A stretch of DNA of 20,979 nt, from positions 1 through 20,979 of the IMG/VR virus record IMGVR_UViG_3300030098_001734, one strand, 5' to 3'. The position numbers and the translations under genes were made by a program. Under the pieces are notes generated by a model that saw nothing but the letters and a program-made list of their open reading frames with translations, ran no database searches and had not been told where the DNA came from. The DNA comes from a virus. Positions 434-16,878 of this stretch are shown in pieces; within the stretch, counting starts at the first letter, position 1, and each line of letters begins with the position of its first letter.

Positions 434-1363
434 TTATGCTCTCACTCTATTAAAATTTGCATTGGAAAATACCTCCCTGTAGATGAGTTTGAATGTGCCA
501 TAATCATTGGACAGAACATAACCTTCATGACCAACTTCTTCACCATTAATATAACATTCTACCTCATTGTATGTGGCAATATGTAACATGAATTCATGTT
601 TGATTGACCACACTAACTTCCACAATCTAAGCACATTGATGTCAACATGATGATAATCAGCAAGAGCAATTAGAGTTAGATCATCAATCACAAGACCACT
701 TGTAATGATACTATTAAGACTCTTAATTACCTTGTTAGCAGTAGTAGTGGACATGTAATCTGCTGCACCTGATATAGCACTAGCATAATCACAAAGTGAT
801 ACAATATCACTCAAATCTTCATCAAGATCAACATAAGGATATAACCAGAATATATCCTCATCACTATCAATTTCAACACAATCTTTAAGGAAAGATTGAT
901 AATCTAATTGATAAGAAACTGCATTTCTTAGATCACCAACAGCAGTGTATCTTGTGTGTGGTGTGATGATAAGTTTCTGATTGATTACATCACCAAAAAC
1001 ATATGCAATAGTGTTGGGTTGATATACATTATCACCACCAAAACCAATGAAATCACCTTGATAAATGTGTTCTGTTCTTGGAAGTTCATCAAAACATTTA
1101 TGTAAAATGTTAGCAACCTTTGGAATGTGTCCATGATTAGTATCAATATCTGCATGAGATTCATTGATCATAATCTTTACTTTGTTGAATACAGATTTAG
1201 TACCAACAAAGAAATTACCAGTAGCAGGATTAGTTCCCCACACAATAGCAGGAGAACCATCCATCTTGACTGATAAGTTACCCTTAGAAGTAAACCACTT
1301 TAACACTGATAAATCACCAGTTAAAACAGAATCTTCAGGGTGATTGATGTGTGTGTTTTTCAT
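434..1363 (-). CDS. Ligase/nucleotidyltransferase-like protein (DUF6267-type)
   Basis: The 309-aa protein starts MKNTHINHPEDSVLTGD. It carries what look like the motifs of the covalent nucleotidyltransferase (DNA/RNA ligase, capping enzyme) superfamily in the right order. These are KMDGS at residues 33-37 (K33 as possible nucleotidyl-lysine), FVGTKS soon after, YQGDFIGFGGD mid-protein (motif III-like), HEGYV near 279-283 (motif IV-like) and FKLIYREVF near 291-299 (motif V-like lysine). I recall similar HINHPED proteins in cyanophages, mostly annotated as unknown or DUF6267. Ligase activity is therefore inference; it could instead be a non-catalytic relative. The start lies 6 nt after a TATAAT box, so a transcript from that promoter would be nearly leaderless. 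No Shine-Dalgarno sequence is present. Confidence 0.85.
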   Translation of the reverse strand: MKNTHINHPEDSVLTGDLSVLKWFTSKGNLSVKMDGSPAIVWGTNPATGNFFVGTKSVFNKVKIMINESHADIDTNHGHIPKVANILHKCFDELPRTEHIYQGDFIGFGGDNVYQPNTIAYVFGDVINQKLIITPHTRYTAVGDLRNAVSYQLDYQSFLKDCVEIDSDEDIFWLYPYVDLDEDLSDIVSLCDYASAISGAADYMSTTTANKVIKSLNSIITSGLVIDDLTLIALADYHHVDINVLRLWKLVWSIKHEFMLHIATYNEVECYINGEEVGHEGYVLSNDYGTFKLIYREVFSNANFNRVRA

Positions 1364-1369
1364 AGTTTC

Positions 1370-1398
1370 ATTATATCAACAAAAAAGACCCCTTGCAA
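1370..1398 (-). promoter_or_regulatory. Sigma70-type promoter nested in a terminator
   Basis: On the minus strand TTGCAA (1398-1393) is followed after exactly 17 nt by TATAAT (1375-1370). The -35 hexamer is exactly the six-base loop of the upstream terminator hairpin, and the spacer is the 3' stem arm plus the T-tract. The expected start site is at or within a few bases of the ATG at 1363, so it would drive the ligase-like gene with little or no leader. Confidence 0.6.
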
Positions 1399-1406
1399 GG
1401 GGTCTT
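1381..1406 (-). terminator. Intrinsic terminator after the basic-protein gene
   Basis: A perfect 22-nt palindrome at 1385-1406 (stem AAGACCCC/GGGGTCTT, loop TTGCAA) is followed on the minus strand by six T at 1386-1381. It sits 10 nt beyond the stop of the gene at 1416-1682. The 8-bp GC-rich stem plus U-tract is a classic rho-independent terminator in this AT-rich DNA. Confidence 0.9.
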
Positions 1407-1415
1407 GTGACAGTT

Positions 1416-1682
1416 CTAGAACTGGTTCTTAAGAAGAAGTTGTGTGAACTTTTCCAGATATAATAATGGGAGTAAGATTAACTCTAACCCATCTAATTCT
1501 GTCAAAGATCTTTTTACTTTCTTCTCTTCTTTAACTGGTGTTTCTGTCACTTTCACTGCCTCAATTGGTGTAACTTTATTTACACTTTGGGTAGTAACTG
1601 TGCTTTTCTTAGTAACAACAGTTCTGGGAGATTTCTTTGCAGTAGTAGATTTAACTGCTGAAGTTCTTCTCCTAGTTGCCAT
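1416..1682 (-). CDS. Small basic Lys/Thr/Ser-rich protein, 88 aa
   Basis: The protein starts MATRRRTSAVKSTTAKKSPRT. Its first about 58 residues are low-complexity and rich in K, R, T, S and V, with many TTKK/VTKK-like runs, recalling histone H1-type tails. The last about 30 residues (ELDGLELILLPLLYLEKFTQLLL...) form a leucine-rich, probably helical segment. DNA binding or packing with self-association through the helix is a reasonable guess, but nothing proves it. It is a single-gene unit: a candidate promoter at 1708-1737 precedes it and a strong terminator follows 10 nt after the stop. No Shine-Dalgarno sequence is seen; the leader is T/A-rich. Confidence 0.75.
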   Translation of the reverse strand: MATRRRTSAVKSTTAKKSPRTVVTKKSTVTTQSVNKVTPIEAVKVTETPVKEEKKVKRSLTELDGLELILLPLLYLEKFTQLLLKNQF

Positions 1683-1707
1683 AAAATAAAATGCAAGTGT
1701 GTTATAA

Positions 1708-1737
1708 AGTATAAGTTAAGAGACTAGGGGAAGTCAA
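1708..1737 (-). promoter_or_regulatory. Candidate sigma70-type promoter for the basic-protein gene
   Basis: On the minus strand TTGACT (1737-1732) is followed by TATACT (1713-1708) after 18 nt; an overlapping TTATAC gives 17 nt. The gene start at 1682 is 25 nt downstream of the -10. The -35 overlaps a weak GACT/AGTC inverted repeat, echoing the hairpin-associated promoters elsewhere in the window. Confidence 0.4.
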
Positions 1738-1768
1738 TTACTCTAACATTATGTCCTACTTTATCATT

Positions 1769-1796
1769 TGCTAGACTTAATTTGCTGCTAGACTTA
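1769..1796. repeat. Short direct repeat, 11 bp, period 17
   Basis: TGCTAGACTTA occurs at 1769-1779 and again at 1786-1796. The pair lies in the middle of the 244-nt noncoding gap between the methyltransferase stop and the basic-protein gene, upstream of the latter's candidate promoter. It could be a pair of protein-binding sites; chance is not excluded. Confidence 0.4.
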
Positions 1797-1834
1797 TAAT
1801 GAATGTTAGGTAGTTAGAAACCTAGTGATCTCTT

Positions 1835-1912
1835 AATGTTGAAAGACTGCTTAAGTTCGAATTAAATGCCACTAATTAAGGCAACCTTGAAAGTCTTATG
1901 CCTCTCAACATT
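1835..1912 (-). other. Foldable tRNA-like element in a noncoding gap
   Basis: Read on the minus strand, an 8-bp outer helix AATGTTGA/TCAACATT (1912-1905 with 1842-1835) encloses a second helix AAGACT/AGTCTT (1897-1892 with 1848-1843). The two are continuous on one side and separated by 7 nt on the other. Inside lie TGCC/GGCA with a 9-nt loop (or the competing AAGG/CCTT) and TTTAA/TTAAG closing a TTCGAAC loop, which is the consensus of a tRNA T-arm loop. No D-arm or normal variable loop fits, so this is not a standard tRNA. It may be a decayed tRNA or another structured RNA. A TATAAATG late-promoter-like box lies just upstream at 1916-1909. Confidence 0.25.
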
Positions 1913-1916
1913 TATA
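1909..1916 (-). promoter_or_regulatory. T4-type late promoter-like box
   Basis: TATAAATG on the minus strand differs by one base from the TATAAATA late consensus. It lies 17 nt after the methyltransferase stop and reads toward the foldable element and the basic-protein gene. In AT-rich DNA a single such match is weak evidence. Confidence 0.3.
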
Positions 1917-1933
1917 CAATAGCAAAATTTCAA

Positions 1934-2860
1934 TCAAGTGGGGGAAATAGTGGACAGAATGTTGACTGGCACACGCTCTTGGATTAGGTTGTTATACTCT
2001 TCATGCAACTCACATCCAATATAATACCTACCCAAACTCCTTGCTACAGCAGCAGTTGTGCCACTTCCCATAAATGGATCAAGGACAATATCATCTTTTT
2101 CACTACCTGCTAATATACATGGTTTGATTAACTCTTCAGGGTAAGTTGCAAAGTGCGCACCTTTATATGGTTTCTTATTAATAGTCCAAACTGATCTTTT
2201 ATTTGCCTTTGAGTATGATTTAGTGAGTCCAGAATGAGGTTGTAAACCTGTACCTTCATTGTGATATTTGCCATTAGTTCTATCTCTTGTGCCCCAATCT
2301 CTTGCAGGTTCTTTTATACTTTCATTATCATAATAATAATATTTGTTCTTACTTAAGAGGAAGATATACTCATGTGATTTAGTGCATCTATCTCTTACAC
2401 TTTCTGGCATTGGATTAGGTTTATGCCATATAATATCTTGTCTTAAATACCATCCATCTGCTCTTAATGCAAATGCTAACATCCAAGGAATACCAATTAA
2501 ATCTTTATCTTTATATCCTACAAGTTTATTACTTCTTCTTGGTGTAGTTTCAGGTAAATCTTGTCTATTAGCAGAGAATGTTTGTTTAGGTATGCAACCA
2601 TCTTTCCTATAATTATAATAACTATCTCCAATGTTTAACCACAATGTACCATCATCAGTAAGACAATCTCTTACTAACCTGAATACACTTACCATCTCTT
2701 TAATATATTCTTCTGGTGATTGTTCCTGTCCTATTTGACTATCTTCCCCACCATAATCACGCAAACCATAGTAAGGTGGAGATGTTACACAACACCTTGC
2801 CTTTTCATCAAATTGTTTAAGTGTTTCTCTACAATCACCAAATAAAATTGTATCTTTCAT
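1934..2860 (-). CDS. Site-specific DNA methyltransferase, beta-class (N4-C or N6-A type)
   Basis: The 308-aa protein has the catalytic motif IV TSPPYYGLRDYG early (residues 26-36) and the AdoMet-binding DPFMGSGTT late (261-269), followed by the motif II-like YYIGCEL. That order defines the beta class of amino-methyltransferases. Motif X-like HFATYPEELIKPCIL precedes DPF, and the middle (about 90-220) would be the target-recognition region. SPPY favours N4-cytosine but N6-adenine enzymes also use it. It probably transfers a methyl group from S-adenosylmethionine to phage or host DNA. No restriction endonuclease lies nearby, so it is an orphan. Its ATG overlaps the stop of the upstream 64-aa gene by one base (TAATG), so coupled translation is likely. 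Confidence 0.93.
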   Translation of the reverse strand: MKDTILFGDCRETLKQFDEKARCCVTSPPYYGLRDYGGEDSQIGQEQSPEEYIKEMVSVFRLVRDCLTDDGTLWLNIGDSYYNYRKDGCIPKQTFSANRQDLPETTPRRSNKLVGYKDKDLIGIPWMLAFALRADGWYLRQDIIWHKPNPMPESVRDRCTKSHEYIFLLSKNKYYYYDNESIKEPARDWGTRDRTNGKYHNEGTGLQPHSGLTKSYSKANKRSVWTINKKPYKGAHFATYPEELIKPCILAGSEKDDIVLDPFMGSGTTAAVARSLGRYYIGCELHEEYNNLIQERVPVNILSTISPT

Positions 2861-3054
2861 TAGTAATATTTTTCAAAATCATCACTAACTTGCACTTCAA
2901 TGGTGTCAAATATTCTCAACAATGATTTTGCAAATATTCTATACCCACTACCAACATATAATTGACCAGCAACTACAGAAAAAGTTGCAATTCCCCAAAA
3001 TAAGTAATAGAATCTTGACTTAACTTGGTTTCTTACTTTATCTTTAGTGAGCAT
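2860..3054 (-). CDS. Small single-helix membrane protein, 64 aa
   Basis: MLTKDKVRNQVKSR is a short basic N-terminus. It is followed by one hydrophobic segment of about 20-25 residues (FYYLFWGIATFSVVAGQLYV) and an acidic C-terminus ending VSDDFEKYY. The positive-inside pattern suggests an N-in single-pass inner-membrane protein. It is the first gene after the nested terminator/promoter at 3076-3113 and is coupled to the methyltransferase by a one-base overlap. No Shine-Dalgarno sequence is visible. The function is unknown; I believe similar proteins occur in T4-like cyanophages but cannot name one. Confidence 0.8.
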   Translation of the reverse strand: MLTKDKVRNQVKSRFYYLFWGIATFSVVAGQLYVGSGYRIFAKSLLRIFDTIEVQVSDDFEKYY

Positions 3055-3075
3055 AATAAATCATTCATCAAATAT

Positions 3076-3104
3076 ATTATGGCATGAAAAAACCCTAGTG
3101 TCAA
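3076..3104 (-). promoter_or_regulatory. Sigma70-type promoter nested in a terminator
   Basis: A perfect -35 TTGACA (3104-3099) is followed after exactly 17 nt by CATAAT (3081-3076), 5 of 6 matches to the -10 consensus. The -35 is the complete six-base loop of the terminator hairpin at 3090-3113. The ATG at 3054 would lie about 15 nt after the start site. It would drive the membrane-protein and methyltransferase genes. Confidence 0.7.
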
Positions 3105-3113
3105 CTAGGGTTT
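3087..3113 (-). terminator. Intrinsic terminator after the 53-aa gene
   Basis: A 9-bp stem AAACCCTAG/CTAGGGTTT at 3090-3113 with the loop TTGACA (minus-strand reading) is followed by a run of six T (3092-3087, overlapping the stem end). It lies 5 nt beyond the stop at 3119. Confidence 0.88.
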
Positions 3114-3118
3114 CAATA

Positions 3119-3280
3119 CTATGTTAGAATTTGTTTGCAAATTCTTCTGCTTTGGTGTTGATCATCACATTCAATTAGACAGTCAAAGTAATCATTTACT
3201 AACTCCCTGTCATCTAATTCTTGGGACTTATCTATATTATTCCATGCTGCTAATTGATTGGACGACATAAGATTGTGCAT
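3119..3280 (-). CDS. Small acidic hypothetical protein, 53 aa
   Basis: I place the start at ATG 3280 (MHNLMSSNQLAAWNNIDKS) because AGGGAG lies 6 nt upstream of it; a longer frame beginning with GTG at 3304 would put that ribosome site inside the gene. The product is acidic and helical, with a C-terminal cluster of two cysteines and basic residues (CLIECDDQHQSRRICKQ gives three Cys in all). No known domain is recognised. A perfect late promoter lies about 70 nt upstream and a terminator directly follows, so it may be a single-gene late unit. Confidence 0.75.
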   Translation of the reverse strand: MHNLMSSNQLAAWNNIDKSQELDDRELVNDYFDCLIECDDQHQSRRICKQILT

Positions 3281-3305
3281 AAAATTCTCCCTATTGTTTA
3301 ACACA

Positions 3306-3325
3306 TAACCAAGAAGGTTTGGTTA
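3306..3325 (-). other. Leader hairpin upstream of the 53-aa gene
   Basis: TAACCAA/TTGGTTA form a 7-bp stem with a 6-nt loop in the stretch between the late promoter at 3350-3357 and the ribosome site of the 53-aa gene. It has no T-tract, so it is not a convincing terminator. It could protect the transcript end or affect translation. Confidence 0.35.
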
Positions 3326-3349
3326 CATCTTGCTACCTAATTCTATCAT

Positions 3350-3357
3350 TATTTATA
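3350..3357 (-). promoter_or_regulatory. T4-type late promoter (TATAAATA)
   Basis: A perfect TATAAATA on the minus strand is followed about 69 nt later by the 53-aa gene start. T4-like phages read this box with the gp55/gp33 late sigma system. It lies just downstream of the stop of the 58-aa gene. Confidence 0.6.
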
Positions 3358-3406
3358 ATATTTGTCAGCAAATTTACATATTTCTGATACATTTCTCAAT
3401 TATGTA

Positions 3407-3583
3407 TTAATACTTAATTAACAACATATTACCAAGTATTTCTGTTTGTTTCATTCCCATCTTGATAGTATATTTAAGCAACAACTTTACATCCTCAATG
3501 TCATCCATCTTATCAATAGTTCTTGATATTTTCTCATATTCAAATTCCCTTTCAGGTGCTATCTTAATCTTGTCAGGATTCAT
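3407..3583 (-). CDS. Small hypothetical protein, 58 aa
   Basis: ATG 3583 to TAA 3407-3409 encodes MNPDKIKIAPEREFEYEKI..., charged and helix-rich throughout (DKMDDIEDVKLLLKYTIKMG). It starts one base after the stop of the 122-aa gene (TAACATG), on the same strand, so it is read as the last member of the helicase operon. Codon use and length of the open frame look genuine, although it is below common length cut-offs. No function can be assigned. Confidence 0.75.
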   Translation of the reverse strand: MNPDKIKIAPEREFEYEKISRTIDKMDDIEDVKLLLKYTIKMGMKQTEILGNMLLIKY

Positions 3584-3584
3584 G

Positions 3585-3953
3585 TTAGTATCTAGCAGGA
3601 ATTGAACTGTAACTATCTATATCTAATGGTCTCTCTTGCGATTTATACATATCTGCCATAGTATCTCCTCTTCTATTCTTAACATACTCTAACTCATTCC
3701 AATTATCTTTATTACATAGCAATGTCACATGTACATTTTTATGCTTCATTGGTTTACCAGAAGTATAACTACACTCTTTTTTAGGATAAACTACAACTTC
3801 AATAGTAATATATTGTGATACAGGATTCCACCCTTGTTTAACTCTTTTGTCATTATCTACAGCATCTCCTTTATGATAAACCCATCCCTCTTCCCAGTCA
3901 CCATTAGGTCTTTTCCAGATGACATAATCATCTACTTGTGGTTCATAAGTCAT
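3585..3953 (-). CDS. Conserved cyanophage-type hypothetical protein, 122 aa
   Basis: The protein begins MTYEPQVDDYVIWKRPNGDWEEGWVYHKGD and has many short beta strands (YITIEVVVYPK, NVHVTLLCNK), which suggests a small beta-barrel such as an SH3-like fold. It ends with a polar tail (ELEYVKNRRGD...). The start is supported by GGAGG spaced 6 nt before ATG 3953. It overlaps the preceding 57-aa gene by 11 nt. I recall very similar MTYEPQVDDYV proteins in T4-like cyanophage genomes, all without a known function. Confidence 0.85.
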   Translation of the reverse strand: MTYEPQVDDYVIWKRPNGDWEEGWVYHKGDAVDNDKRVKQGWNPVSQYITIEVVVYPKKECSYTSGKPMKHKNVHVTLLCNKDNWNELEYVKNRRGDTMADMYKSQERPLDIDSYSSIPARY

Positions 3954-4116
3954 TTAAATCCTCCAAAAATAAAATGTCTCTGTCTTTTTCATCAACATTG
4001 AACTCAAAATACAATGAGTCAGCATCACTTAGTTGATCATTATCAACTAATTCACTCATTCTTATGTTCCAGAATGATTGTAACTCAATCAAAGCATTTC
4101 TTTTAGTTTCATTCAT
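3943..4116 (-). CDS. Small acidic hypothetical protein, 57 aa
   Basis: ATG 4116 to TGA 3943-3945 encodes MNETKRNALIELQSFWNIRM..., strongly acidic in its second half (DADSLYFEFNVDEKDRD). AAGG about 5 nt upstream overlaps the helicase stop, and only 2 nt separate the helicase TAA from this ATG. The frame overlaps the next gene by 11 nt and supplies that gene's GGAGG ribosome site. Both ends therefore fit a tight operon. It is small enough to be missed by gene callers. Function unknown. Confidence 0.75.
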   Translation of the reverse strand: MNETKRNALIELQSFWNIRMSELVDNDQLSDADSLYFEFNVDEKDRDILFLEDLNDL

Positions 4117-4118
4117 AA

Positions 4119-5291
4119 TTACCTTGTAATTACTGACACTGCTGGTTGACCTTTATCAAAGACAGTATCAACAACTGCATTTACTTTCTTTGATGTACTG
4201 ATACCAACTCTATCATACACTGGAATAGAAACAATGCCAAACTTTTTGTTTGCATTACCTTTTCTAATCACTCTACCAATAGTTTGACTGATAGCAGTGT
4301 AATTCATAGATCTTAGAAACAATACTGCTTCTAGTCCATTTACATTTATACCTTCAGATAGTATGCTGTGATGTAACACAACAAATCTAGTGTTGTCCTT
4401 ACCCCACTGATTCAATGTCTCAAAGAACTTGACTCTGCTGACCTTGATGCCATTGATAACTGCACCAGTCTTAGCAGTGATGTACATCCAATTGTATCCT
4501 CTACCATACAACTCTGTGCCTAGTTTACTATTAGCAAACAACTGCACTATCTGTGATGTTCTTCTGGCACAGATGAGTATCTTATCAACAGAATTAGAAT
4601 CAATACTAGACAATATATTATCAGCATCATCTTCACATGTAATCTTTCTATCTCTAATCATATCCAACTGATTAACAACTACCTTGGGTGGTAGTATGAC
4701 ACCAGCATCAACCAACTCAGGTGCAGGTACTTGCTCAATGACTCTACCATACACCTCCTCATTGTTCATGCCAACTTTCTTGTGACTAGAACTATGGTGA
4801 GGAGTAGCAGTAAAGAAAAAACACCTACGATTATTTGTAGTTGCAAAAAATCTAGTAGGAGTGTGGAAATGTTTTTGAACACTGTTATGTGCCTCATCAA
4901 AGTATATTGTATTTACAGGAATACTAGACTGTTGTATTCTATGTAATGAATGATATGTTGTAAATATAATTTTATTGTCATTCCAATTGTTTACAACCCA
5001 CTGACCAATAGCATTGGAGTTAGTTGTACTATCATGATCTGTATCACCACTGTGTACATGCAACACCTTTGCATTGTCAATTATCTTTAAGAAATCAGTA
5101 GATAATTGCTGTGCTAATAATATTCTAGGTGCTACAACTACAACAGTTTGATTACCATATTGAAACTGTCTATGAGCATCAGTGATCATGCACATAGTTT
5201 TACCACCACCAGTAGGCACAATGACCTGACCCTTGATAGTGTGAATCATTTTATCAACAATCCTCTGCTGGTGAGGACGTAATGTAATCAT
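4119..5291 (-). CDS. SF2 DEAH-box helicase (UvsW/type III restriction-like)
   Basis: The 390-aa protein shows the superfamily 2 helicase motifs in order. They are LRPHQQRIVDKM (Q-motif region, 4-15), Walker A PTGGGKT (26-32), VVVVAPRILLAQQ (Ia), TTYHSL (111-116), DEAH (132-135), TATP (161-164), ILSEGINVNGLEAVLFLR (V) and SQTIGRVIRKG (VI). It would couple ATP hydrolysis to DNA or RNA remodelling. It is shorter than T4 UvsW (about 500 aa) and lacks an obvious extra N-terminal domain, so I call only the superfamily. It leads an operon with three small genes (57, 122 and 58 aa). The promoter at 5312-5340 lies just upstream, leaving a leader of about 14 nt without a Shine-Dalgarno sequence. Confidence 0.93.
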   Translation of the reverse strand: MITLRPHQQRIVDKMIHTIKGQVIVPTGGGKTMCMITDAHRQFQYGNQTVVVVAPRILLAQQLSTDFLKIIDNAKVLHVHSGDTDHDSTTNSNAIGQWVVNNWNDNKIIFTTYHSLHRIQQSSIPVNTIYFDEAHNSVQKHFHTPTRFFATTNNRRCFFFTATPHHSSSHKKVGMNNEEVYGRVIEQVPAPELVDAGVILPPKVVVNQLDMIRDRKITCEDDADNILSSIDSNSVDKILICARRTSQIVQLFANSKLGTELYGRGYNWMYITAKTGAVINGIKVSRVKFFETLNQWGKDNTRFVVLHHSILSEGINVNGLEAVLFLRSMNYTAISQTIGRVIRKGNANKKFGIVSIPVYDRVGISTSKKVNAVVDTVFDKGQPAVSVITR

Positions 5292-5311
5292 AAAAATATT
5301 TCAGTAACCAT

Positions 5312-5340
5312 ATAATAAAACTCCTGACTACAAAAGTCAA
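5312..5340 (-). promoter_or_regulatory. Sigma70-type promoter nested in a terminator
   Basis: TTGACT (5340-5335) is followed after exactly 17 nt by TATTAT (5317-5312) on the minus strand. The -35 forms part of the 5' stem arm, next to the loop, of the hairpin at 5319-5345. The helicase ATG at 5291 lies 20 nt after the -10. Confidence 0.65.
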
Positions 5341-5345
5341 GAGTT
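5317..5345 (-). terminator. Intrinsic terminator after the 80-aa gene
   Basis: Stem AACTC/GAGTT plus TGACT/AGTCA with one mismatch between them and a 5-nt loop spans 5319-5345. On the minus strand it ends in GAGTTTTATTAT, a short T-rich tail. It lies 41 nt after the stop at 5386. The tail is weaker than at the other two terminators. Confidence 0.65.
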
Positions 5346-5385
5346 ATGGGACACTATTCTAACTGGCACATTGAACACTATAAAA

Positions 5386-5628
5386 CTAGGAAACTTTAAC
5401 TAATGACTCCATGTTTCTAAAACTACCATCAATACTATAGTATAACTTATAATTTTCTGTTGTTACATAATGTCCTATTATATCATTACCATCACAGTTC
5501 CAACCATATGCTATGATTCTCTCTTCACCACCATCAATTCTCATTTTCTTACTGCCATCTAGGTAAGAGTGGTATCTTTCATCTAAATTCAGCATAGGAT
5601 TAAGAGTAATGTGAGGACATTCTAACAT
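5386..5628 (-). CDS. Hypothetical protein, 80 aa
   Basis: The protein begins MLECPHITLNPMLNLDERYHSYLDGSKKM and continues with likely short beta strands (RIIAYGWNCDGNDIIGHYVTTENYKLYYSIDG). It has two cysteines and no membrane segment or known motif. ATG 5628 is the first start; no Shine-Dalgarno sequence precedes it, and M12 is an alternative start. A TATAGATA box (5649-5642) 13 nt upstream is one base off the late consensus, and the promoter at 5796-5824 could also read into it with a leader of about 160 nt. Function unknown. Confidence 0.7.
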   Translation of the reverse strand: MLECPHITLNPMLNLDERYHSYLDGSKKMRIDGGEERIIAYGWNCDGNDIIGHYVTTENYKLYYSIDGSFRNMESLVKVS

Positions 5629-5693
5629 ATGTTAGTTCTAGTATCTATAAACTTAATTGTCTCTTAATATTTCAGAAGTTTGCTATGGTGTAC

Positions 5694-5795
5694 TCAACCA
5701 ATCTTACACCCCAATTCAAGAAGACAATGAATGAGGTGATAAAAATCAACTTTTCCTTTGTAGAATAAATCACAAATCAATACTAAACTATTCAT
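5694..5795 (-). CDS. Possible 33-aa small protein
   Basis: ATG 5795 to TGA 5694-5696 encodes MNSLVLICDLFYKGKVDFYH and 13 more residues, with a protein-like mix of hydrophobic and charged positions. It fills much of the otherwise empty gap 5629-5855. Against it: there is no Shine-Dalgarno sequence, and the ATG directly abuts the -10 box of the promoter at 5796-5824. It could therefore only be translated from a transcript started further upstream. A second short frame with AAAGGA before a TTG overlaps it. Low certainty. Confidence 0.35.
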   Translation of the reverse strand: MNSLVLICDLFYKGKVDFYHLIHCLLELGCKIG

Positions 5796-5824
5796 AGTAT
5801 AGAAAGTGTCATGTCACATGGCAA
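5796..5824 (-). promoter_or_regulatory. Sigma70-type promoter at a hairpin
   Basis: TTGCCA (5824-5819) is followed after exactly 17 nt by TATACT (5801-5796) on the minus strand. The -35 straddles the loop and stem of the inverted repeat at 5812-5838. It would restart transcription after the large fibre gene and read toward the 80-aa gene. Confidence 0.55.
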
Positions 5825-5838
5825 GTAGTCATGTGACA
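5812..5838. terminator. Hairpin after the large fibre gene (possible terminator)
   Basis: TGTCACATG (5812-5820) and CATGTGACA (5830-5838) form a perfect 9-bp stem with a 9-nt loop, 18 nt beyond the stop at 5856. On the minus strand no T-tract follows, so intrinsic termination of the fibre transcript is doubtful. On the plus strand G plus five T follow. It may act as an mRNA 3'-end hairpin or terminate opposing transcripts. Confidence 0.5.
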
Positions 5839-5855
5839 GTTTTTACATTGTCATA

Positions 5856-8800
5856 CTATGGAGTAGTATCTTGTATCAACCCTGCGCTCATTCCATAACC
5901 ATTCCAATGACCTTGAACACCTGCCCAATCAGTTTTGTCTGTCATTATTTGAATGGGTGATGAAAATGCGTCAGAATCTGTTGCTTGAGAACTTGGATTT
6001 CCAGAATCTTCAGCAAGTGCTCCTCTATTATTCAATCCCCATCCCCACATTGATCCATCAGTCTTAAGTGCCAATGAACCATTAGTTAAGAAACATATTT
6101 GTTGATGATTCCAATTAGTACCAGGAATTTGTCTTGGTGATGAGTATGCTGTATTGTTATTTTGTCCCAGTCTACCATTGGTATTTGTTCCCCATGCCCA
6201 TAATGTTCCATCAGTCTTGGTTGCTAGAGTAGCATATTGTCTAGCAGAGACACTGCTCCAATTAGTACCAGGAACTTGAGTTGGGTTGACCTGTTCAGTT
6301 TTATTATTCAAACCCAATTGACCATTATTATTTCTACCCCATGCATATAACTCCCCTGATGTATTAACTGCAAAGGAACTAAAGACAGTTTCTCTATTAG
6401 TATATACCCAATTAGTAGAAGATCCTACTTGTCTTGGAGATGAATAATGACTTTTATCACCTTGTCCTAGTTGACCATATTCATTAGTTCCCCATGCCCA
6501 TAGTGTTCCATCAGTTTTAATCCACCTAGTGTGACCTGATCCTTGTCCACCATGTCTAGCATTAGAACTCCATGTAGTACCAGGTATTTGAGTTGGTGAT
6601 GATTTACCATTACCTACAGGACCATTTAAACCCATGGCATAACCAGCATTTCCCCATGTCCATAATGTTCCATCTGTTTTAGATGCCACAGTAAAGTTAT
6701 ACAATCCAACAACAGCATCACCCCATGTAGTACCAGGAACTTGAGTTGGTGATGATCTATGCTTATCATTATTATCTCCTATATTTCCATAATTACCTCT
6801 TCCAGTTCTCCATAAAGTACCATCAGTCTTAAGTAAAGCAAATCCCTGAATACCACCAGAACCAGCTAATACCCAATTAGAACCAGCTAATTGAACTGGT
6901 GATGATATGCCTTTATATGATGGAGTATCTGCATTATTAAGTCCTAATCCACCATATTCATTATCTCCCCATACCCATACTTGATTTGCTATTGGAGTGG
7001 TTCTAAATGTCCATCCAATAGCAACATTACCATCACCTGCATTATCAACAACTACATTTGCTGGTAATTCCACTGCTATGACAGAATCATTAGCAAAATT
7101 ACTAAGCATATCCATCTCAAGAGATGATGTAGAGAATCTAACAGAACTACCAACACCAAATGCTTGTATGACAGTTCCACCTAGACTTACTTGTCTTACA
7201 TTAATGGTGCCACTACCTGGAAAGACTGCTGTAGTAAAACTAATTCCTATACCTGTGGTTATGTTTGCTTCACCACCAGCTACAGGATTATAGTGTAGAA
7301 CACCAATAGTTCCACCAACACCAGTTAATGCACTACCATCACCAGCAAATGCTGTTGCACTGCAAGTGCCAGTCACCGTAAATCCGCCAGTTACCGTTTC
7401 TGCCTTCTTCGAACCATTAAAGTATAGGTCAACACCATCATTAACATTAGCTACTAGATAATTTTCTCCAACACTCTTTGCTGCAAGAGATATATTATCT
7501 CCTTTTACATATATGTAACCAGTGGAATTTTCAAAGTATGAGTTGCTTCCATCGTGATAGATGGACATATCAGCTCCACTACCCATTTTTATCTTTGCAT
7601 TATCATTAAGTTCAAAAGCACTATTTGTCTCATTCCACATTGCATTATAATTTGCTCCATCAAATGTGACATCATCACCAAATGTAGATATACCAGCATT
7701 GTTTAAACTATCACAATCAACATTACCTACTACATTCACACCAACGCTCGTAGTGTTTATTCTTGCTTGATCATCATAGTAGAGAGTTACGCCTACGTTT
7801 GGTACAGCTAATAGAGCATTTTCACCACCTATTCTAAGAGAGAAATTACCATCAGTATTGTCAATTATACCTGTGGTCCCATCATGCCTTATTTTTAAGT
7901 CTGATCCCGTCCCAAATAATGCTTGTGCATTATCATTCCATATTATACTATTTGCACTCTTATCCCAAGTTACATTATAACTAGCACCAGCAAAGACAAC
8001 ATCATCACCAAAGTTTGAAGCACCATCAACATCTAAAACATCTAAGTTTGTTGTACCATCAACATCTAAATCTCCATTAAAGTCAGCATTACCAGTCAAT
8101 GTTGTTATACCAGTCACACTTAAGTGACGACCAATAACTGCATCATAATTTGAGTGCAATATATTTGAGTTGGTTTGTGCAGCATTTCCCATGTAACCAT
8201 GGTTAACACACATATAGAACAACACAGTAGGAGTTGTATCACCTACAACTATCTGAGTATATGCTCCTGAGTTACCAGCAGTTCCATTGTAAGTTACTCC
8301 ATTTTCATACAAACCAGTTTTATCTGATTCAAGATAGAACTTAATTTGATGAGAACTATTAGAACTATCAGCTTGATCAAATCTATATGTATTGCCTGGT
8401 GTTAAGGTCAGGAATGGAGATTGCAAACCATCAATAACATATCCTAAACTACTTCCTTGTCCATGATATCTGTGTTGTCCACTAACCTTTGTTGCAACTG
8501 TGACTGTAAGTGTAGTGGTTGTTCCACTATAAGGTGCAGCAGTATATTTGTATCCTTTTATTATATCTTGAGCATCAACAGCACCAGTGAGTGTAGATAC
8601 ACCAGTAACACTAACTTGATTAGCAGTCAAACTGGTAGTAAATGCAACAGGAGCAGCAAGACGTGTAGCAGCAAGAGTAGTGCCATCAAATGTTAAACCA
8701 GCATTATCTTGCAACTCTCCAGAACTACCAGCAAAAGTAACTCTACCAGATGTTAAGTCACCAATAGCAGCAGTATCAGCAGCAAGACTATCAATATTTG

Positions 8801-9671
8801 CAGTTCCATCAATATATAAATCTTTAAATTCTAATCCAGATGCACCTAAATCTCTTGCATTATCAGTAGAGGGAACAATATCACTATCAAATCTACCTGT
8901 TGCAGTAATAGTATCTGAGGTAGCATTACCAAGATCAACATCACCATTGAATGTAGATCCAGCAGATACAAGTAATTGAGTAGCATTGGAGTTAGTAATA
9001 GTACTAGTTCCAGATACTATAGAGTTAACTACTCTCTCTTCATCATATACCAAATCACCAGTAACATTTAAATTACCAGTTGCTGTTATGTTATTAAAGA
9101 ATGAAGTTCCTGTTGTATCAATACCAACAGTAGAACTAGCAATACTAACATTTACTGTATTACCAATTGAAACAACAGTATTTCCAACTCCAATAAAGTT
9201 TATTTGTGTTATACCTACACCTATTGCTACTCCACCTGATTGAATACCTACACCAGCAGTACCAGCTTTAAAACTTGTATTAGATACTGTACCATCAGCA
9301 ATGGTATTAAGAGATAATGATTGTCCTAAGAATACGCCAAAAAATGTTAAACCAGCAGAAGGTGCTGTGGTGAAGGTGATAGTAGACCCTGATACTGTGT
9401 AGTCATTGGTGGGATTTTGCATCACACCACCAACACTTATCAATACCTGTGCATCACTAACTGGTTCTACTGCAACACTAGAAACTCTTAAATTAAACTG
9501 AGTGGTTGAACCATTAAATGAACCTGAAATATCATCTAACTCCTTTATGTTAGCAGCTCTTTGAGGATCTGTGCTGATCCAAACTGTCCCATTCCATTCA
9601 TAGGAAAAACCAGAAGTAGAATCATGAAACACATCACCTGTATTTGCTGAATCTGGAAAATTTAACGTCAT
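5856..9671 (-). CDS. Large tail-fibre/structural protein with cupredoxin-like and RCC1 domains, 1271 aa
   Basis: The N-terminus (FPDSANTGDVFHDSTSGFSYEWNGTVW) and the following QFNLRVSS...LISVGGVMQNP region are typical of marine phage fibre proteins. A long glycine/asparagine/threonine-rich stalk follows, with repeated units such as DVDGTTNLDVLDVDGASN and DLKIRHDGTTG. Residues about 378-502 form a cupredoxin-like module, with H441, C488, H491 and M494 in the order of a type-1 copper site. The stalk then resumes. From about residue 895 to the end there are seven RCC1-type repeats (TDGTLWxWG...G.LG...SSPxQxPGTxW), fitting one seven-bladed propeller that could bind a host receptor. Each element is visible in the sequence; assembly as a trimeric fibre and receptor binding are inferred. 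A perfect late promoter lies 20 nt upstream. Confidence 0.9.
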   Translation of the reverse strand: MTLNFPDSANTGDVFHDSTSGFSYEWNGTVWISTDPQRAANIKELDDISGSFNGSTTQFNLRVSSVAVEPVSDAQVLISVGGVMQNPTNDYTVSGSTITFTTAPSAGLTFFGVFLGQSLSLNTIADGTVSNTSFKAGTAGVGIQSGGVAIGVGITQINFIGVGNTVVSIGNTVNVSIASSTVGIDTTGTSFFNNITATGNLNVTGDLVYDEERVVNSIVSGTSTITNSNATQLLVSAGSTFNGDVDLGNATSDTITATGRFDSDIVPSTDNARDLGASGLEFKDLYIDGTANIDSLAADTAAIGDLTSGRVTFAGSSGELQDNAGLTFDGTTLAATRLAAPVAFTTSLTANQVSVTGVSTLTGAVDAQDIIKGYKYTAAPYSGTTTTLTVTVATKVSGQHRYHGQGSSLGYVIDGLQSPFLTLTPGNTYRFDQADSSNSSHQIKFYLESDKTGLYENGVTYNGTAGNSGAYTQIVVGDTTPTVLFYMCVNHGYMGNAAQTNSNILHSNYDAVIGRHLSVTGITTLTGNADFNGDLDVDGTTNLDVLDVDGASNFGDDVVFAGASYNVTWDKSANSIIWNDNAQALFGTGSDLKIRHDGTTGIIDNTDGNFSLRIGGENALLAVPNVGVTLYYDDQARINTTSVGVNVVGNVDCDSLNNAGISTFGDDVTFDGANYNAMWNETNSAFELNDNAKIKMGSGADMSIYHDGSNSYFENSTGYIYVKGDNISLAAKSVGENYLVANVNDGVDLYFNGSKKAETVTGGFTVTGTCSATAFAGDGSALTGVGGTIGVLHYNPVAGGEANITTGIGISFTTAVFPGSGTINVRQVSLGGTVIQAFGVGSSVRFSTSSLEMDMLSNFANDSVIAVELPANVVVDNAGDGNVAIGWTFRTTPIANQVWVWGDNEYGGLGLNNADTPSYKGISSPVQLAGSNWVLAGSGGIQGFALLKTDGTLWRTGRGNYGNIGDNNDKHRSSPTQVPGTTWGDAVVGLYNFTVASKTDGTLWTWGNAGYAMGLNGPVGNGKSSPTQIPGTTWSSNARHGGQGSGHTRWIKTDGTLWAWGTNEYGQLGQGDKSHYSSPRQVGSSTNWVYTNRETVFSSFAVNTSGELYAWGRNNNGQLGLNNKTEQVNPTQVPGTNWSSVSARQYATLATKTDGTLWAWGTNTNGRLGQNNNTAYSSPRQIPGTNWNHQQICFLTNGSLALKTDGSMWGWGLNNRGALAEDSGNPSSQATDSDAFSSPIQIMTDKTDWAGVQGHWNGYGMSAGLIQDTTP
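5880..6985 (-). repeat. Seven RCC1 repeats in the large fibre gene
   Basis: Seven degenerate units of roughly 45-55 codons share TDGTLWAWG, a GQLG turn and SSP-Q-PGTNW. The third and seventh carry insertions (for example SGNPSSQATDSD in the last). The number seven fits a closed seven-bladed beta-propeller. Confidence 0.85.
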
Positions 9672-9691
9672 TATCCAATGCTTTTTTTATA

Positions 9692-9699
9692 TATTTATA
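9692..9699 (-). promoter_or_regulatory. T4-type late promoter (TATAAATA) for the large fibre gene
   Basis: A perfect TATAAATA on the minus strand lies 20 nt before ATG 9671, in an AT-rich 59-nt gap without terminator structure. Confidence 0.7.
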
Positions 9700-9730
9700 T
9701 TATTATATTAGTAAGGATTAGAATATAGAT

Positions 9731-11602
9731 TTAAACATTATAATTCACTACTTCCTTTGCATACCAACCACCTATCTCTACATAACTTCCCATATTTGAG
9801 TGATTAGAACAATAATAATAAAGAAGAGGAGCATCAGCAGCAACAGTAATTCTTGTGTATGCACCAGAGTTACCTGGTGAACCATTTGTAACTACTCCAG
9901 TGGTGTATTGTGATCCTCCTCCATGAGTACCATCACTAGATGTAGAGAATCTTAGTGGATGATTACTATTACTAGAATCTGATTGATCAAATGTATATAC
10001 TCCACCACGATATAGAGTAGCTCTGTATGAAACAGTGCCATCAAGATAAAACTTATTACCACCAGAATCAGCTACTGTGACTGTATAGGTGGTAGCAGTT
10101 GTATCAGGAAGTTTTGCTGCTAATTTAAATACCTGTACTTTATCAGTGCCTCCAGCACTTTGAAGTAATGTAGGTTCTGTTCCACCATCCCATACAAAAC
10201 CAGTTGGCCATGTGACTGTTCTTGTTGTACCATTATCATCCTTAACTCTAATCAAATAAGCAACAGATACATTGTTAGGATTATTGAGAGCTATAGTAGT
10301 ATTAGAACTTTGAGTCATGTAAATGAGATTACCACTACTCATATTTAAAACAGTGCTAGTGCTATTAGCAGTAACAGATTGTTGATTATAAGCTCCAGCA
10401 GCAATACCTGACAAATTACTACCATTTCCTGAAAATGTTGTAGCAGTTACTATTCCAAGATTTGCATGAGAAGTATTGTTACTTAAACCTGCTGCATTAC
10501 CTGTTAAATTTCCTGCAAAACTACTTGCTGTGCATATACCCAACTTCAAGTTAGGAGTGCCAGAGACTGCACTAGCATTACCAGTAAGATTTCCTGCAAA
10601 ACTACTTGCACTACAGATACCTAACTTTAGATTAGGGGTTCCAGAAACTGCACTAGCATTACCAGTGAGATCCCCTGCAAAACTACTTGCACTACAGATA
10701 CCTAACTTTAAATTTTTATTATTAGATGCTATGCCACCAGCATTACCAAATAAATTTCCAGCAAAACTACTAGCAGTTACAATACCCAACCTCATGTTGG
10801 CATCATTAGTAGATAAACTAGCAACATTACCTGTTAGATTACCTGCAAATGATGAGGCAGTTACAATACCTAGATTTAAATTAGCATTAGTACCAGTTAG
10901 ATTAGCAGCATTACCTGTCAAGTTACCAGCAAATGATGTGGCAGTAACAATACCTAGTTTCAATCTAGCACTACTACCAGCTAAGTTGGCAGCATTACCA
11001 GTAAGATCTCCTGCAAATGATGATGCACTTGTGATACCTAATTTTAAATTAGCACTGCTTCCAGCTAATTCAGTGGCATTACCAGTAAGATCTCCTGAGA
11101 AACTAGTGGCACTTGTTATTCCTAACTTTAAATTAGCAGTGGTGGTGGATAATCCAGCAGCATTACCAGTAAGATCTCCTGCAAATGATGATGCTGTAAA
11201 TGTTCCTACATTTATATTCTTACCACCTGATACTCCAGTGGAACTACCTGTAGTATCTCCCTGAAACTTAGTAGCAGTAACTAAACCAGCAGTGATATTA
11301 GGTCCACCAGTAATACCAGAGGCAATACCAGTAAAATCTCCTACCATACTGGTGGCAGTGACTTCCCCTAAAATTAAATTATCTGTATTACTTGTTATAC
11401 CTACAACATTACCAGTAACATCTCCCACAAAAGATGAAGCAGTCAAAACTCCTACTACTAAGTTGCTACCTTTTGCAAGACTACTAGCAGCACCAGTTAC
11501 ATTACCAACAAAATTACCACCAGTTACCACTCCAGCAACATTCAATCCAGGAACATTAAATGTACCTTCAGGTGCTATCAGTTGGACTTTTTCCTGACTC
11601 AT
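9731..11602 (-). CDS. Tail-fibre protein: 13-repeat shaft and C-terminal cupredoxin-like domain, 623 aa
   Basis: After a 30-residue head (MSQEKVQLIAPEGTFNVPG) the protein has 13 tandem units of about 28 residues, typified by ASSFAGNLTGNAANL. A cap GNGSNLSGIAAG follows. Next comes a beta-rich domain (VTANSTSTVLNMSSGNLIY, TVTWPTGFVWDGGTEPTLL) shared with the two fibres upstream. Instead of their RCC1 propeller it ends in a cupredoxin-like module: GGVYTFDQSDSSNSNHPLRF with H548, then YYYCSNHSNMGS with C598, H601 and M604. It is one of three paralogues in a row. The late promoter AATAAATA upstream overlaps the preceding gene's stop. No Shine-Dalgarno sequence is present. The shaft probably trimerises as an elongated beta structure (inference). 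Confidence 0.88.
   Translation of the reverse strand: MSQEKVQLIAPEGTFNVPGLNVAGVVTGGNFVGNVTGAASSLAKGSNLVVGVLTASSFVGDVTGNVVGITSNTDNLILGEVTATSMVGDFTGIASGITGGPNITAGLVTATKFQGDTTGSSTGVSGGKNINVGTFTASSFAGDLTGNAAGLSTTTANLKLGITSATSFSGDLTGNATELAGSSANLKLGITSASSFAGDLTGNAANLAGSSARLKLGIVTATSFAGNLTGNAANLTGTNANLNLGIVTASSFAGNLTGNVASLSTNDANMRLGIVTASSFAGNLFGNAGGIASNNKNLKLGICSASSFAGDLTGNASAVSGTPNLKLGICSASSFAGNLTGNASAVSGTPNLKLGICTASSFAGNLTGNAAGLSNNTSHANLGIVTATTFSGNGSNLSGIAAGAYNQQSVTANSTSTVLNMSSGNLIYMTQSSNTTIALNNPNNVSVAYLIRVKDDNGTTRTVTWPTGFVWDGGTEPTLLQSAGGTDKVQVFKLAAKLPDTTATTYTVTVADSGGNKFYLDGTVSYRATLYRGGVYTFDQSDSSNSNHPLRFSTSSDGTHGGGSQYTTGVVTNGSPGNSGAYTRITVAADAPLLYYYCSNHSNMGSYVEIGGWYAKEVVNYNV
10400..11512 (-). repeat. 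Shaft repeats of the 623-aa fibre (13 units plus cap)
   Basis: Thirteen units of about 84 bp encode the pattern S-F-G-L-T-G-N...L-LGI-TA, counted from GGNFVGNVTG (residue about 31) to the cap ATTFSGNGSNLSG. Neighbouring units near 10500-10720 are the most alike, which suggests recent local duplication or conversion. Confidence 0.85.
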
Positions 11603-11615
11603 CGCGTTTTTTAGT

Positions 11616-11623
11616 TATTTATT
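11616..11623 (-). promoter_or_regulatory. T4-type late promoter (AATAAATA)
   Basis: AATAAATA lies 13 nt before ATG 11602 and overlaps the TAA stop (11619-11621) of the preceding fibre gene. A start 6-7 nt downstream leaves only a few bases of leader. Confidence 0.55.
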
Positions 11624-14234
11624 CATCATATTGTAGACCTAAAAGTCCTTTAAATCCATTACTAATTCCAACTGAGATCCACTTAGTACCAGGAATTTGT
11701 TTTGGTGATGAGTAATCTGTTGTATTATTAAGTCCTAGTTGTCCAACCTCATTACTTCCCCATGACCACAATGTTCCATCAGTTTTGGTTGCTGCTGCTT
11801 GAAAACTAGATATACAATTTGCTGCAAGTCCAGTTTTCCATGTAGTGCCAGGTACTTGTCTTGGTGATGAATAAGGTGTTTTATTATTATGTCCTAATTG
11901 TCCTTGATCATTTGCTCCCCATGTCCACAGTGTTCCATCAGTTTTGGTTGCCATTACATAACTTCCGCCAGAAGAACTAGCCCATGTAGTACCAGGTACT
12001 TGAACTGGTGATGAGTATCTTACTTTATTACCCTGTCCTCCTTGTCCATTATTATTTCTACCCCATGTCCACAGTGTTCCATCACTTTTGATAGCGTGCA
12101 TTGAATGTCCTGCATTAGCACTAACTTGAGACCATGTAGTGCCAGGTACTTGAACTGGTGATGATCTTTTACCTGGATTTTCATTTGCATTTTGTCCCAA
12201 TCTTCCATCACTATTACTTCCCCATGTCCATAGTGTTCCATCAGTTTTGAGTGCAAAACAAGTTTCAGCTGCACCTCCAGCTCCTCCAACACCAGTTTTC
12301 CATGTAGTGCCAGGTACTTGAGTTGGTGATGAAAGTTTTAGTGATGGTGATTGATTTAATCCTAAACATCCATCACTATTTTGTCCCCATGTCCATAGGG
12401 TTCCATCAGTTTTAGTTGCCACATTAAACCTATCACCAGCACTTATAAAAGACCAGTTAGTACTACTTCCTATTTGAATTGGAGAAGAATACTGAGTGCT
12501 ACCTGGTGTATTAAGTCCCTGCAATCCACTATCATCTGAAGCCCATGTCCACAATGTTCCATCTGATCTAATAGCATAACCTGGATATTTGGTGCATTGT
12601 CCTGAATCTGCTACAAAACTCCAAGTGCTGCCAGGTACTTGAACTGGAGATGATACTCTTGACCTAGTGGTCATAGGTATTGGCAATGCTCCCTGATAGC
12701 TATCATTTCCCCATGCGAAGAATTTAGTAGTTGAAGGATCATTAGAAATATTCTCCCACCCAAACCATGTTGTTCCACCATCACGAGTTAATAAATTAAA
12801 TTGTTGATAATCACTAGATCTGGGGTTTTCAATGAGAGTTGGAGCAGCTCCACCAGTCCATTTTACAGCATTAGGCCATGTAATGCTACCAGTGCCATTA
12901 GCCCTCAAAATTGAAATTACATGTGAAGTTGAAACATTACTAAAAGATATTGTAGTATTAGCAGTTTGTGTGAGAACTATGTTATCACCATTATTTAAAT
13001 CTATTGTTGTGCTAGAACTATTAGCAGTTACATTATTAGTGATAAAAGCTGTTGCTCCAATCCCTGTTAAATTACTCCCATCCCCAATAAGGGTTCCTGT
13101 CATAATACCAACAGTAATATTAGGACTGCCAGTAATACCTGATGCTACTCCTGTAAAATTACCAAGGAAACTACTTGCAGTAACTATTCCTGCAGTAAAA
13201 CTAGGTGTGCCAGTCAATCCAGAACCAATACCAGTAAAGTTACCTATAAAACTACTTGCAGTAACTATTCCTGCAGTAAAACTGGGTGTACCAGTGAGAC
13301 CAGAACCAATACCAGTGAAGTTACCTATAAAACTACTTGCAGTAACTATGCCAGCAGTATAATCAGGTGTTCCAGTTAATCCAGATCCAATACCAGTGAA
13401 GTTACCAGCAAATGCTGTTGCTGTTATAACACCAGCAGTGATATTAGGTGTACCAGTTATACCTGAAGCAAATCCAGTAAAGTTGCCAAGTAATGATGAT
13501 GCTGTCACAAGACCAGCAGTTACATCAGGTGTGCCAGTCAATCCTGATGCATGACCAGTGAAGTTACCAATGAATGATGATGCTGTAACCACACCAGCAG
13601 TTACATTAGGTGTACCACTAAGTCCAGAACCAATACCAGTAAAGTCTCCTATAAAACTACTTGCAGTGACCACACCAGCTCTGACATTAGGAGTGCCACT
13701 AAGTCCAGAACCAATACCAGTGAAGTTACCCACAAAAGTAGATGTAACTACACCAGCAACAACATTAGGTGTGCCAGTTAAACCTGATCCAATGCCAGTA
13801 AAGTTACCAGCAAAATTAGTAGCAGTAACTATACCTAGATTTAATTGAGAATCAGTGTTTGAAAAACTAGCAGCATTACCTGTTAGATTACCAATGAATG
13901 ATGTGGCAGTAAATATACCAACATTAGCATTAGTGCCATCAGCTAAATTTGCTGATCTTCCAGAAGTATTACCTGTAAACTTAGTAGCAGTAACTACACC
14001 AGCAACTATATTATTTCCACTAAAAATACTACTTGCAGAACCAGTGACATCTCCAACCATACCACTGGTTGTAACTATACCAACATCTAAATTAGCTGTG
14101 GTGGTGCTAAGACCAGTCACAGTACCAGTCACATCACCAATAAGAGTCGTAGCAGTAACCACACCACTCACTTGGATAGTGGATGCTGTAACTACTCCTA
14201 TTGGTTGTATTAATTGTGCCTTGGTCTGACTCAT
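11619..14234 (-). CDS. Tail-fibre protein: 13-repeat shaft and RCC1 propeller, 871 aa
   Basis: The head MSQTKAQLIQPIGVV is followed by 13 tandem units of about 27 residues (SSFIGNFTGIGSGLTGTPN...TAGIVTA), then the cap GDGSNLTGIG. A beta-rich domain follows (VTANSSSTTIDLNNGDNIVL, ITWPNAVKWTGGAAPTL, DGGTTWFGWE). The C-terminal part has seven RCC1-type repeats such as TKTDGTLWTWGANDQGQLG ending SSPRQVPGTTW, fitting one propeller. The final residues (GLLGLQYDE) would close the ring. RCC1 propellers bind proteins in eukaryotes; here receptor recognition is a reasonable inference only. It is a paralogue of the genes on both sides. The late promoter lies 12 nt upstream within the previous gene's stop region; no Shine-Dalgarno sequence is present. 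Confidence 0.88.
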   Translation of the reverse strand: MSQTKAQLIQPIGVVTASTIQVSGVVTATTLIGDVTGTVTGLSTTTANLDVGIVTTSGMVGDVTGSASSIFSGNNIVAGVVTATKFTGNTSGRSANLADGTNANVGIFTATSFIGNLTGNAASFSNTDSQLNLGIVTATNFAGNFTGIGSGLTGTPNVVAGVVTSTFVGNFTGIGSGLSGTPNVRAGVVTASSFIGDFTGIGSGLSGTPNVTAGVVTASSFIGNFTGHASGLTGTPDVTAGLVTASSLLGNFTGFASGITGTPNITAGVITATAFAGNFTGIGSGLTGTPDYTAGIVTASSFIGNFTGIGSGLTGTPSFTAGIVTASSFIGNFTGIGSGLTGTPSFTAGIVTASSFLGNFTGVASGITGSPNITVGIMTGTLIGDGSNLTGIGATAFITNNVTANSSSTTIDLNNGDNIVLTQTANTTISFSNVSTSHVISILRANGTGSITWPNAVKWTGGAAPTLIENPRSSDYQQFNLLTRDGGTTWFGWENISNDPSTTKFFAWGNDSYQGALPIPMTTRSRVSSPVQVPGSTWSFVADSGQCTKYPGYAIRSDGTLWTWASDDSGLQGLNTPGSTQYSSPIQIGSSTNWSFISAGDRFNVATKTDGTLWTWGQNSDGCLGLNQSPSLKLSSPTQVPGTTWKTGVGGAGGAAETCFALKTDGTLWTWGSNSDGRLGQNANENPGKRSSPVQVPGTTWSQVSANAGHSMHAIKSDGTLWTWGRNNNGQGGQGNKVRYSSPVQVPGTTWASSSGGSYVMATKTDGTLWTWGANDQGQLGHNNKTPYSSPRQVPGTTWKTGLAANCISSFQAAATKTDGTLWSWGSNEVGQLGLNNTTDYSSPKQIPGTKWISVGISNGFKGLLGLQYDE
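11650..12732 (-). repeat. Seven RCC1 repeats in the 871-aa fibre
   Basis: Seven units share SDGTLWTWG, G-LG and SSP-QVPGTTW. The spacing of the first two is irregular (SYQGALPIPMTTRSR; LQGLNTPGSTQ). Nucleotide identity with units of the neighbouring fibre gene is high: one 34-bp stretch at 11981-12014 is identical to 15239-15272. Confidence 0.85.
13055..14144 (-). repeat. Shaft repeats of the 871-aa fibre (13 units plus cap)
   Basis: Thirteen units of about 81 bp run from TTLIGDVTG to SSFLGNFTG, followed by the cap GTLIGDGSNLTG. One unit (STFVGNFTG) is a residue or two short. Units near 13180-13360 are nearly identical at the DNA level. Confidence 0.85.
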
Positions 14235-14246
14235 TAGTTTTTTATT

Positions 14247-14254
14247 TATTTATG
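14247..14254 (-). promoter_or_regulatory. T4-type late promoter (CATAAATA)
   Basis: CATAAATA, with a second AATAAATA four bases on, lies 12 nt before ATG 14234 and overlaps the TAA (14250-14252) of the preceding fibre gene. Confidence 0.55.
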
Positions 14255-16859: not shown

Positions 16860-16878
16860 TATAAATCTATAATACAAC

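Follow-up and report, generated by a model that had tools for sequence, protein, structure and literature searches.

The DNA analysed here, referred to as the window, is a 20,979-bp IMG/VR virus record (IMGVR_UViG_3300030098_001734) and is a fragment of a T4-like marine cyanophage. We examined four gene boundaries on its minus strand at which a putative promoter and an inverted repeat share one short stretch, with the -35 hexamer inside the hairpin and the -10 hexamer downstream. The main genes over 434-16877 are carried on the minus strand, and small open reading frames (ORFs) surround the sites. PHROG matches in the window comprise a DNA methyltransferase, a DNA helicase, and several small proteins of unknown function. 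The nearest named relatives are T4-like cyanophages such as P-TIM68, which matches parts of the stretch from methylase to helicase at 80%. The helicase ORF 4119-5291 matched 423 phage records, nearly all of them cyanophages. An Rfam search of the window gave no match, and no tRNAs were found in it.

Both strands of the window were scanned with a fixed rule. A TTG-type -35 with at least 4/6 matches had to lie inside a stem of at least six pairs, including three G-C pairs, and a -10 with at least 5/6 matches had to follow after a spacer of 16-18 nt. This returned four sites, all on the minus strand and all with a spacer of 17 nt, which are exactly those of the initial annotation; its hexamer pairs and 17-nt spacers were confirmed at the coordinates given below. 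Among 200 locally dinucleotide-shuffled windows, 165 contained no site, 31 contained one, and four contained two, but never three or more (mean 0.2). Hence, the observation of nested sites in excess of chance holds. RNA folding gave -14.3, -14.1, -14.3, and -12.5 kcal/mol for sites 1-4 (z -3.0 to -5.7), and at sites 1-3, sequence and folding agree on a terminator-like element on the minus strand, in which a T-tract comes after the stem-loop. Counted on their own, promoter-like sites show no enrichment in the window (71 vs 88.5 ± 7.6). What is unusual is the nesting, not the number of promoter-like sites. The four copies share a geometry and no common sequence, and across contigs, similar stretches between the -10 and the gene start occur with different hairpins. 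A distance of 17 nt is the ordinary sigma70 spacing, and the spacer in relatives is 16 or 17.

The same arrangement recurs in related phages. The comparison set comprised 1.62 Mb of related loci, obtained by scanning IMG/VR with three window proteins and supplemented with P-TIM68 and two single-cell contigs. P-SSM2, S-SM2, Syn9, and S-PM2 were added later, and orthologs were collapsed, resulting in 233 terminator clusters. In the related loci, a -10 lies 10-12 nt past the last G-C pair for 89 of 214 unique terminator-like hairpins, where about 7 are expected; after collapsing, with the added phages, 55 clusters have a -10 at these offsets (about 6 expected). The phased set was picked blind to the -35. 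At spacers 16-18, 31/52 of its terminators had a -35 hexamer matching in 4/6 or more positions, compared with 20/181 of the unphased ones (Fisher p = 4e-12); averaged over the phased set, the -35 match peaks at spacers 16 and 17 only. Relatives thus show enrichment both in the -10 phasing and in the -35-like hexamer. Typical loops in relatives are TTCACA, TTTACA, TACACA, and TTGACA, and the -10 often reads TGn-TATAAT. A minor class, like site 3, has the -10 at offset 3 and TTGACN in the 5' arm.

A pattern scan across IMG/VR covered relatives and non-relatives alike. It looked for CCCC-loop-GGGG-T6 with TATAAT downstream, allowing 25 different offsets. Among the matches listed, TATAAT stood at offsets 10-12 in 43/72 unique hairpins, and the phased hairpins differed from the others in a -35-like loop (16/43 vs 3/29), in the dyad box described below (29/43 vs 2/29), and in TGn (30/43 vs 5/29). 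Judged by these sequence comparisons, the architecture is not random, and within one branch of the cyanophages it is widespread. RB49, T4, Syn9, S-PM2, and S-SM2 led us to reject the idea that its exact form is universal in T4-like phages.

All promoter features of the four sites are given on the minus strand. At site 1, the -10 TATAAT (1370-1375), identified by sequence and scan, lies at offset 11 from the stem of a terminator-like hairpin, AAGACCCC-TTGCAA-GGGGTCTT with a T-run (1385-1406), which is supported by scan, folding, and a conserved stem. The proposed -35 is TTGCAA (1398-1393). The six-base loop had been described as exactly the -35 at sites 1 and 2, which is correct for site 2; at site 1, the best-pairing loop has 4 nt and TTGCAA spans the loop/stem boundary. 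Upstream is a dyad box, CCAGTT-CTAG-AACTGTCAC (1407-1425), recognized by its sequence, its phasing, and its retention in phrog_455 orthologs. Its 3' end is 31 nt upstream of the -10, and it overlaps the TAG stop of ORF 1416-1682. At 1416-1425, the centre of the dyad coincides with this stop, which means that the last codons of the upstream protein form half of the operator-like dyad.

The ATG of ORF 434-1363 begins 6 nt past the site 1 -10. As this distance ahead of the phrog_455 gene (in the window, within 1361-1375) is kept in 15/16 orthologs, a conserved leaderless phage mRNA is predicted. We compared 21 starts of phrog_455 protein genes. The box, the hairpin, and the -10 are present in most of them; the loops differ, and the -35 is gone in several. 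The TTGCAA is therefore not conserved, and the loop -35 was discarded as an invariably conserved part, contrary to the constant loop -35 proposed before. The stem changes on both arms, from AAGACCCC/GGGGTCTT to AAGCACCC/GGGTGCTT, and in L013, L042, and L023, the pairing is kept with two double-sided changes. The ortholog L096 has TTGACT-16-TATACT instead and no hairpin.

Site 2 is the sole site whose orthologs keep both hairpin and promoter. Its terminator-like hairpin, AAACCCTAG-TTGACA-CTAGGGTTT (3090-3113), was found by scan and folding, and the -35 TTGACA (3104-3099) is the hairpin loop itself. The -10 CATAAT (3076-3081) stands at offset 11 and is preceded by TGC, an extended -10. The putative promoter would drive ORF 2860-3054 (phrog_2000). 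In the orthologs found, TTGACA-17-(C/A)ATAAT is invariant, and the stem alternates between two pairings, being rebuilt in L013 and L022.

Site 3 belongs to the offset-3 class. Folding places a terminator-like hairpin at 5319-5345, with the -35 TTGACT (5340-5335) in its 5' arm and the -10 TATTAT (5312-5317) supported by sequence and orthologs. The promoter predicted from these hexamers would drive ORF 4119-5291, which encodes a UvsW-like helicase. The dyad box GCCAGTT-AGAA-TAGTGTCCC (5348-5367) has its 3' end 30 nt upstream of the -10, and orthologs carry the equivalent boxes AACTGTCC and AAGTGTCC. The initial annotation had assigned TTGACT to the loop-side stem. It is the 5' arm that holds this hexamer. 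In L005, L006, and L016, TTGACT and TATTAT are retained and the hairpin is gone.

At site 4, the -35 TTGCCA (5824-5819) lies inside an inverted repeat (5812-5838) that is terminator-like on the plus strand only. The -10 TATACT (5796-5801) is supported by the scan and by orthologs. The box AACTGTCAC (5833-5841) is 31 nt upstream of the -10 and conserved in L003, L005, and L006. In the orthologs L005 and L006, the box, TTGYCA, and TATACT are kept and the hairpin is absent. From these differences between orthologs at the individual sites, promoter and terminator are separable parts set in register rather than one indivisible motif. Downstream of site 4, the approximately 170 nt up to ORF 5386-5628 (5629-5795) are strongly conserved in L003, L005, and L006, at 91-99% over 300 nt. 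This region may hold an unlisted ORF of 33 amino acids (MNSLVLICDLFYKG...). Its ATG abuts the site 4 -10, so that a transcript begun at this site would leave it untranslated.

The dyad box was not part of the initial description of the sites. Upstream of hairpins 1, 3, and 4, it follows the consensus GNCAGTT-N4-AACTGNCAC with a gap of 4 nt. Its density in cyanophages is about five times that of T4, RB49, and KVP40, and it is conserved more widely than the hairpin. In 111/282 ortholog-collapsed boxes, the 3' end lies 29-31 nt upstream of a -10. A strong hairpin lies between box and -10 in 27 of these phased cases (2.8 expected); in 75, there is no appreciable hairpin. The distance from box to -10 is 28-30 nt (measured with a 10-nt box), while the gap between box and hairpin varies over 0-5 nt. 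Because it keeps register with the -10 while the hairpin gap varies, the box looks like a promoter element and is probably an operator for a dimeric protein. An assignment to the terminator was rejected, as the register follows the -10 and not the hairpin, and boxes are also present without hairpins.

In P-SSM2, 12/14 phased boxes fall within 42-68 kb, and in S-PM2, 3/4 fall within 5-12 kb; both are small-gene regions. One phased box of P-SSM2 is located just upstream of the helicase homolog, in the order box-terminator-promoter as in the window. Only 1/28 boxes of dyad form is phased in Syn9, and KVP40 has no phased box. Work on Syn9 by Doron et al. in 2016 reportedly describes a novel element controlling early genes of T4-like cyanophages, and the dyad box could be this element or a relative of it. 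Upstream of the helicase in distant cyanophages from IMG/VR (e.g., L033, L034, and L044), we noted a highly repeated intergenic element, AGGGGGGACGCATAAAGTGTCC(C/T)TATAGTGTA, whose 8-mer GGGGGGAC occurs 49 times with 0.3 expected; this element may represent a variant dyad box. The helicase promoters of L046, L059, and L066 read ATACC-TTTTAT-GGTAT-AAT and adjoin a GCGTCTGTATGGCGTT repeat; here, a small inverted repeat takes in the -10 itself.

Promoter-early stem-loops (PeSLs) are the closest known counterpart. According to the passages of PMC4503421 that deal with them, they are composite promoter-terminator cassettes of T4-like phages at exchange points (Arbiol et al. 2010; Comeau et al. 2014) and are few in S-PM2. 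Like PeSLs, the window cassettes appear to combine a terminator and a sigma70-like promoter in one short cassette, among small genes of variable regions and at gene-order junctions. Between the window and L003, the identity changes from 54% upstream to 98% downstream of site 3 and from 59% to 99% at site 4, the upstream values coming from a forced global alignment. These jumps mark gene-order junctions and are consistent with PeSL behaviour. In the PeSL phages RB49 and T4, nearby -10s are mostly about 18-23 nt past the stem, with no -35 in the loop. The window and its relatives, in contrast, have their -10 at 10-12 nt (or 3 nt), carry the -35 in the hairpin's loop or 5' arm, and keep a distal dyad box in phase with the -10; the copies within the window share no common sequence, which may be a further difference.

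The Vibrio phage KVP40 provides a second parallel, as it has the -35 TTGACT within a terminator hairpin, 18 nt upstream of the -10. It carries seven related hairpins with a -10 of TATTAT (or TATCAT) 6-8 nt past the stem (L201, L203-L206), and its profile shows five -10s at offset 7, with 0.7 expected per position. Three of the seven follow the pattern GGGTTGACTACGGTCAACCC-TTTCTTG-TATTAT, their -35 being part of the 5' arm. Since the -35 is within the terminator stem, nesting as such is already present there. Unlike the window, KVP40 combines the 5'-arm -35 with offset 7, has a near-constant stem sequence, and lacks the dyad box. The halovirus HF2 has intergenic repeats with promoter elements (PMC8707807), and in HGTV-1, such intergenic elements are combined with an inverted repeat (PMC3950731); their promoters, however, are of the archaeal TATA type. 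The architecture is therefore not new in kind; it is a PeSL variant that has a phased dyad box and places the -35 in the loop or 5' arm.

We interpret the sites as composite boundaries of the PeSL type, in which a sigma70-type promoter would contain the terminator of the upstream gene; they would separate tandem and probably early genes of a T4-like marine cyanophage. We give this reading a probability of roughly 0.78. The promoter would consist of the dyad box, located distally some 30 nt upstream of the -10 (sites 1, 3, and 4), a -35-like hexamer of varying quality, and the -10. At sites 1-3, the terminator would be nested in it, with the loop or 5' arm as the -35 and the 3' arm plus T-tract as the spacer. 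A polymerase leaving the upstream gene would halt at the hairpin and T-tract, and a host sigma70-type polymerase would use the same DNA as a promoter and start afresh just beyond the hairpin. As the predicted start is downstream of the hairpin, the new RNA would lack it and escape termination, in agreement with the initial proposal. Polymerase reading through might occlude the promoter, as was also suggested initially. We infer termination, initiation, and binding of a regulator to the dyad from the geometry, enrichment, phasing, conservation, and presence at gene-order junctions found in these sequences. Early timing of the genes is suggested by the small-gene context and by the host sigma70-type promoters published for cyanomyovirus early genes (PMC2984593).

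Several observations weigh against this reading. At site 4, the minus strand has no T-tract, as that of the inverted repeat lies on the plus strand, and the hairpin is lost in orthologs; the site was therefore rejected as a minus-strand terminator, and the terminator architecture claimed for all four sites does not extend to it. The idea that one unit ends one gene and starts the next thus stands as a sequence architecture, recurrent and phased in relatives, and fails at site 4. At sites 1, 3, and 4, -35 and hairpin are not conserved together, and a constant hairpin is contradicted by site 3 and 4 orthologs, in which the promoter persists without it. The dyad box is missing at site 2. The lengths of stem arm and T-tail show no mutual compensation (rho -0.13, p = 0.35), so a trade-off that would hold the 17 nt is unsupported. 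Terminator phasing is scant or zero in Syn9, S-PM2, and S-SM2, and relatedness through cassette copying remains after ortholog collapsing. Swapped genes meet in intergenic DNA anyway, and the junctions are compatible with shuffling and no proof of it.

The PeSL-type reading could be extended by a hand-off, in which a polymerase remaining on the DNA after termination is captured by the nested promoter and reinitiates, passing expression from gene to gene. Post-termination polymerase of E. coli does stay on DNA and reinitiate at nearby promoters in vitro, and the effect is expected to depend on the terminator-promoter distance (PMC6978380); here, the release point would fall within the promoter. 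We nevertheless consider a hand-off improbable, since this in vitro result would have to be carried over to in vivo and cyanobacterial settings, and orthologs that lose the hairpin yet keep the promoter argue against its necessity. In a fuller and likewise doubtful version, the reinitiation frequency would be set by the dyad box together with a phage or host factor bound to it, and early genes would be expressed singly and without long read-through RNAs.

Alternatively, terminators and AT-rich promoters may simply overlap in compacted gaps without functional coupling. The gaps are indeed short and AT-rich, and the site 1 -35 as well as the site 3 and 4 hairpins are unconserved. However, the sharp phasing at offsets 10-12, which an independent scan repeated, already disfavours such a coincidence, and the -35 match is confined to spacers 16-17 and found chiefly in phased terminators, which makes this explanation unlikely. 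In another alternative, which we consider very unlikely, the hairpins would mainly serve the phage promoter, as operators or RNA elements that, together with the dyad box, are bound by a regulator of phage or host, and termination would be minor. In its favour, the box is phased to the -10 without a hairpin in 75/111 clusters, and at site 4, the inverted repeat overlaps the box and lacks a T-tract. Against it, the phased hairpins are G-C rich, have T-tracts and diverse stems, and are thus terminator-like and unlike a sequence-specific operator.

As PeSL-type boundaries, the sites would provide a compact and testable rule that predicts the ends and starts of transcripts in abundant marine cyanophages, and they would extend PeSL-type modularity to Prochlorococcus-type phages. 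Terminator and promoter could share DNA, with the -35 in the hairpin loop, and the phased dyad box points to a regulator. The geometry also offers a test of the reuse of terminated polymerase.

Beyond the sites, consecutive long fibre-like proteins are encoded at 5856-16877 on the minus strand. According to the translations, they carry C-terminal RCC1-like GTLWTWG..GQLG repeats after differing N-terminal repeats.

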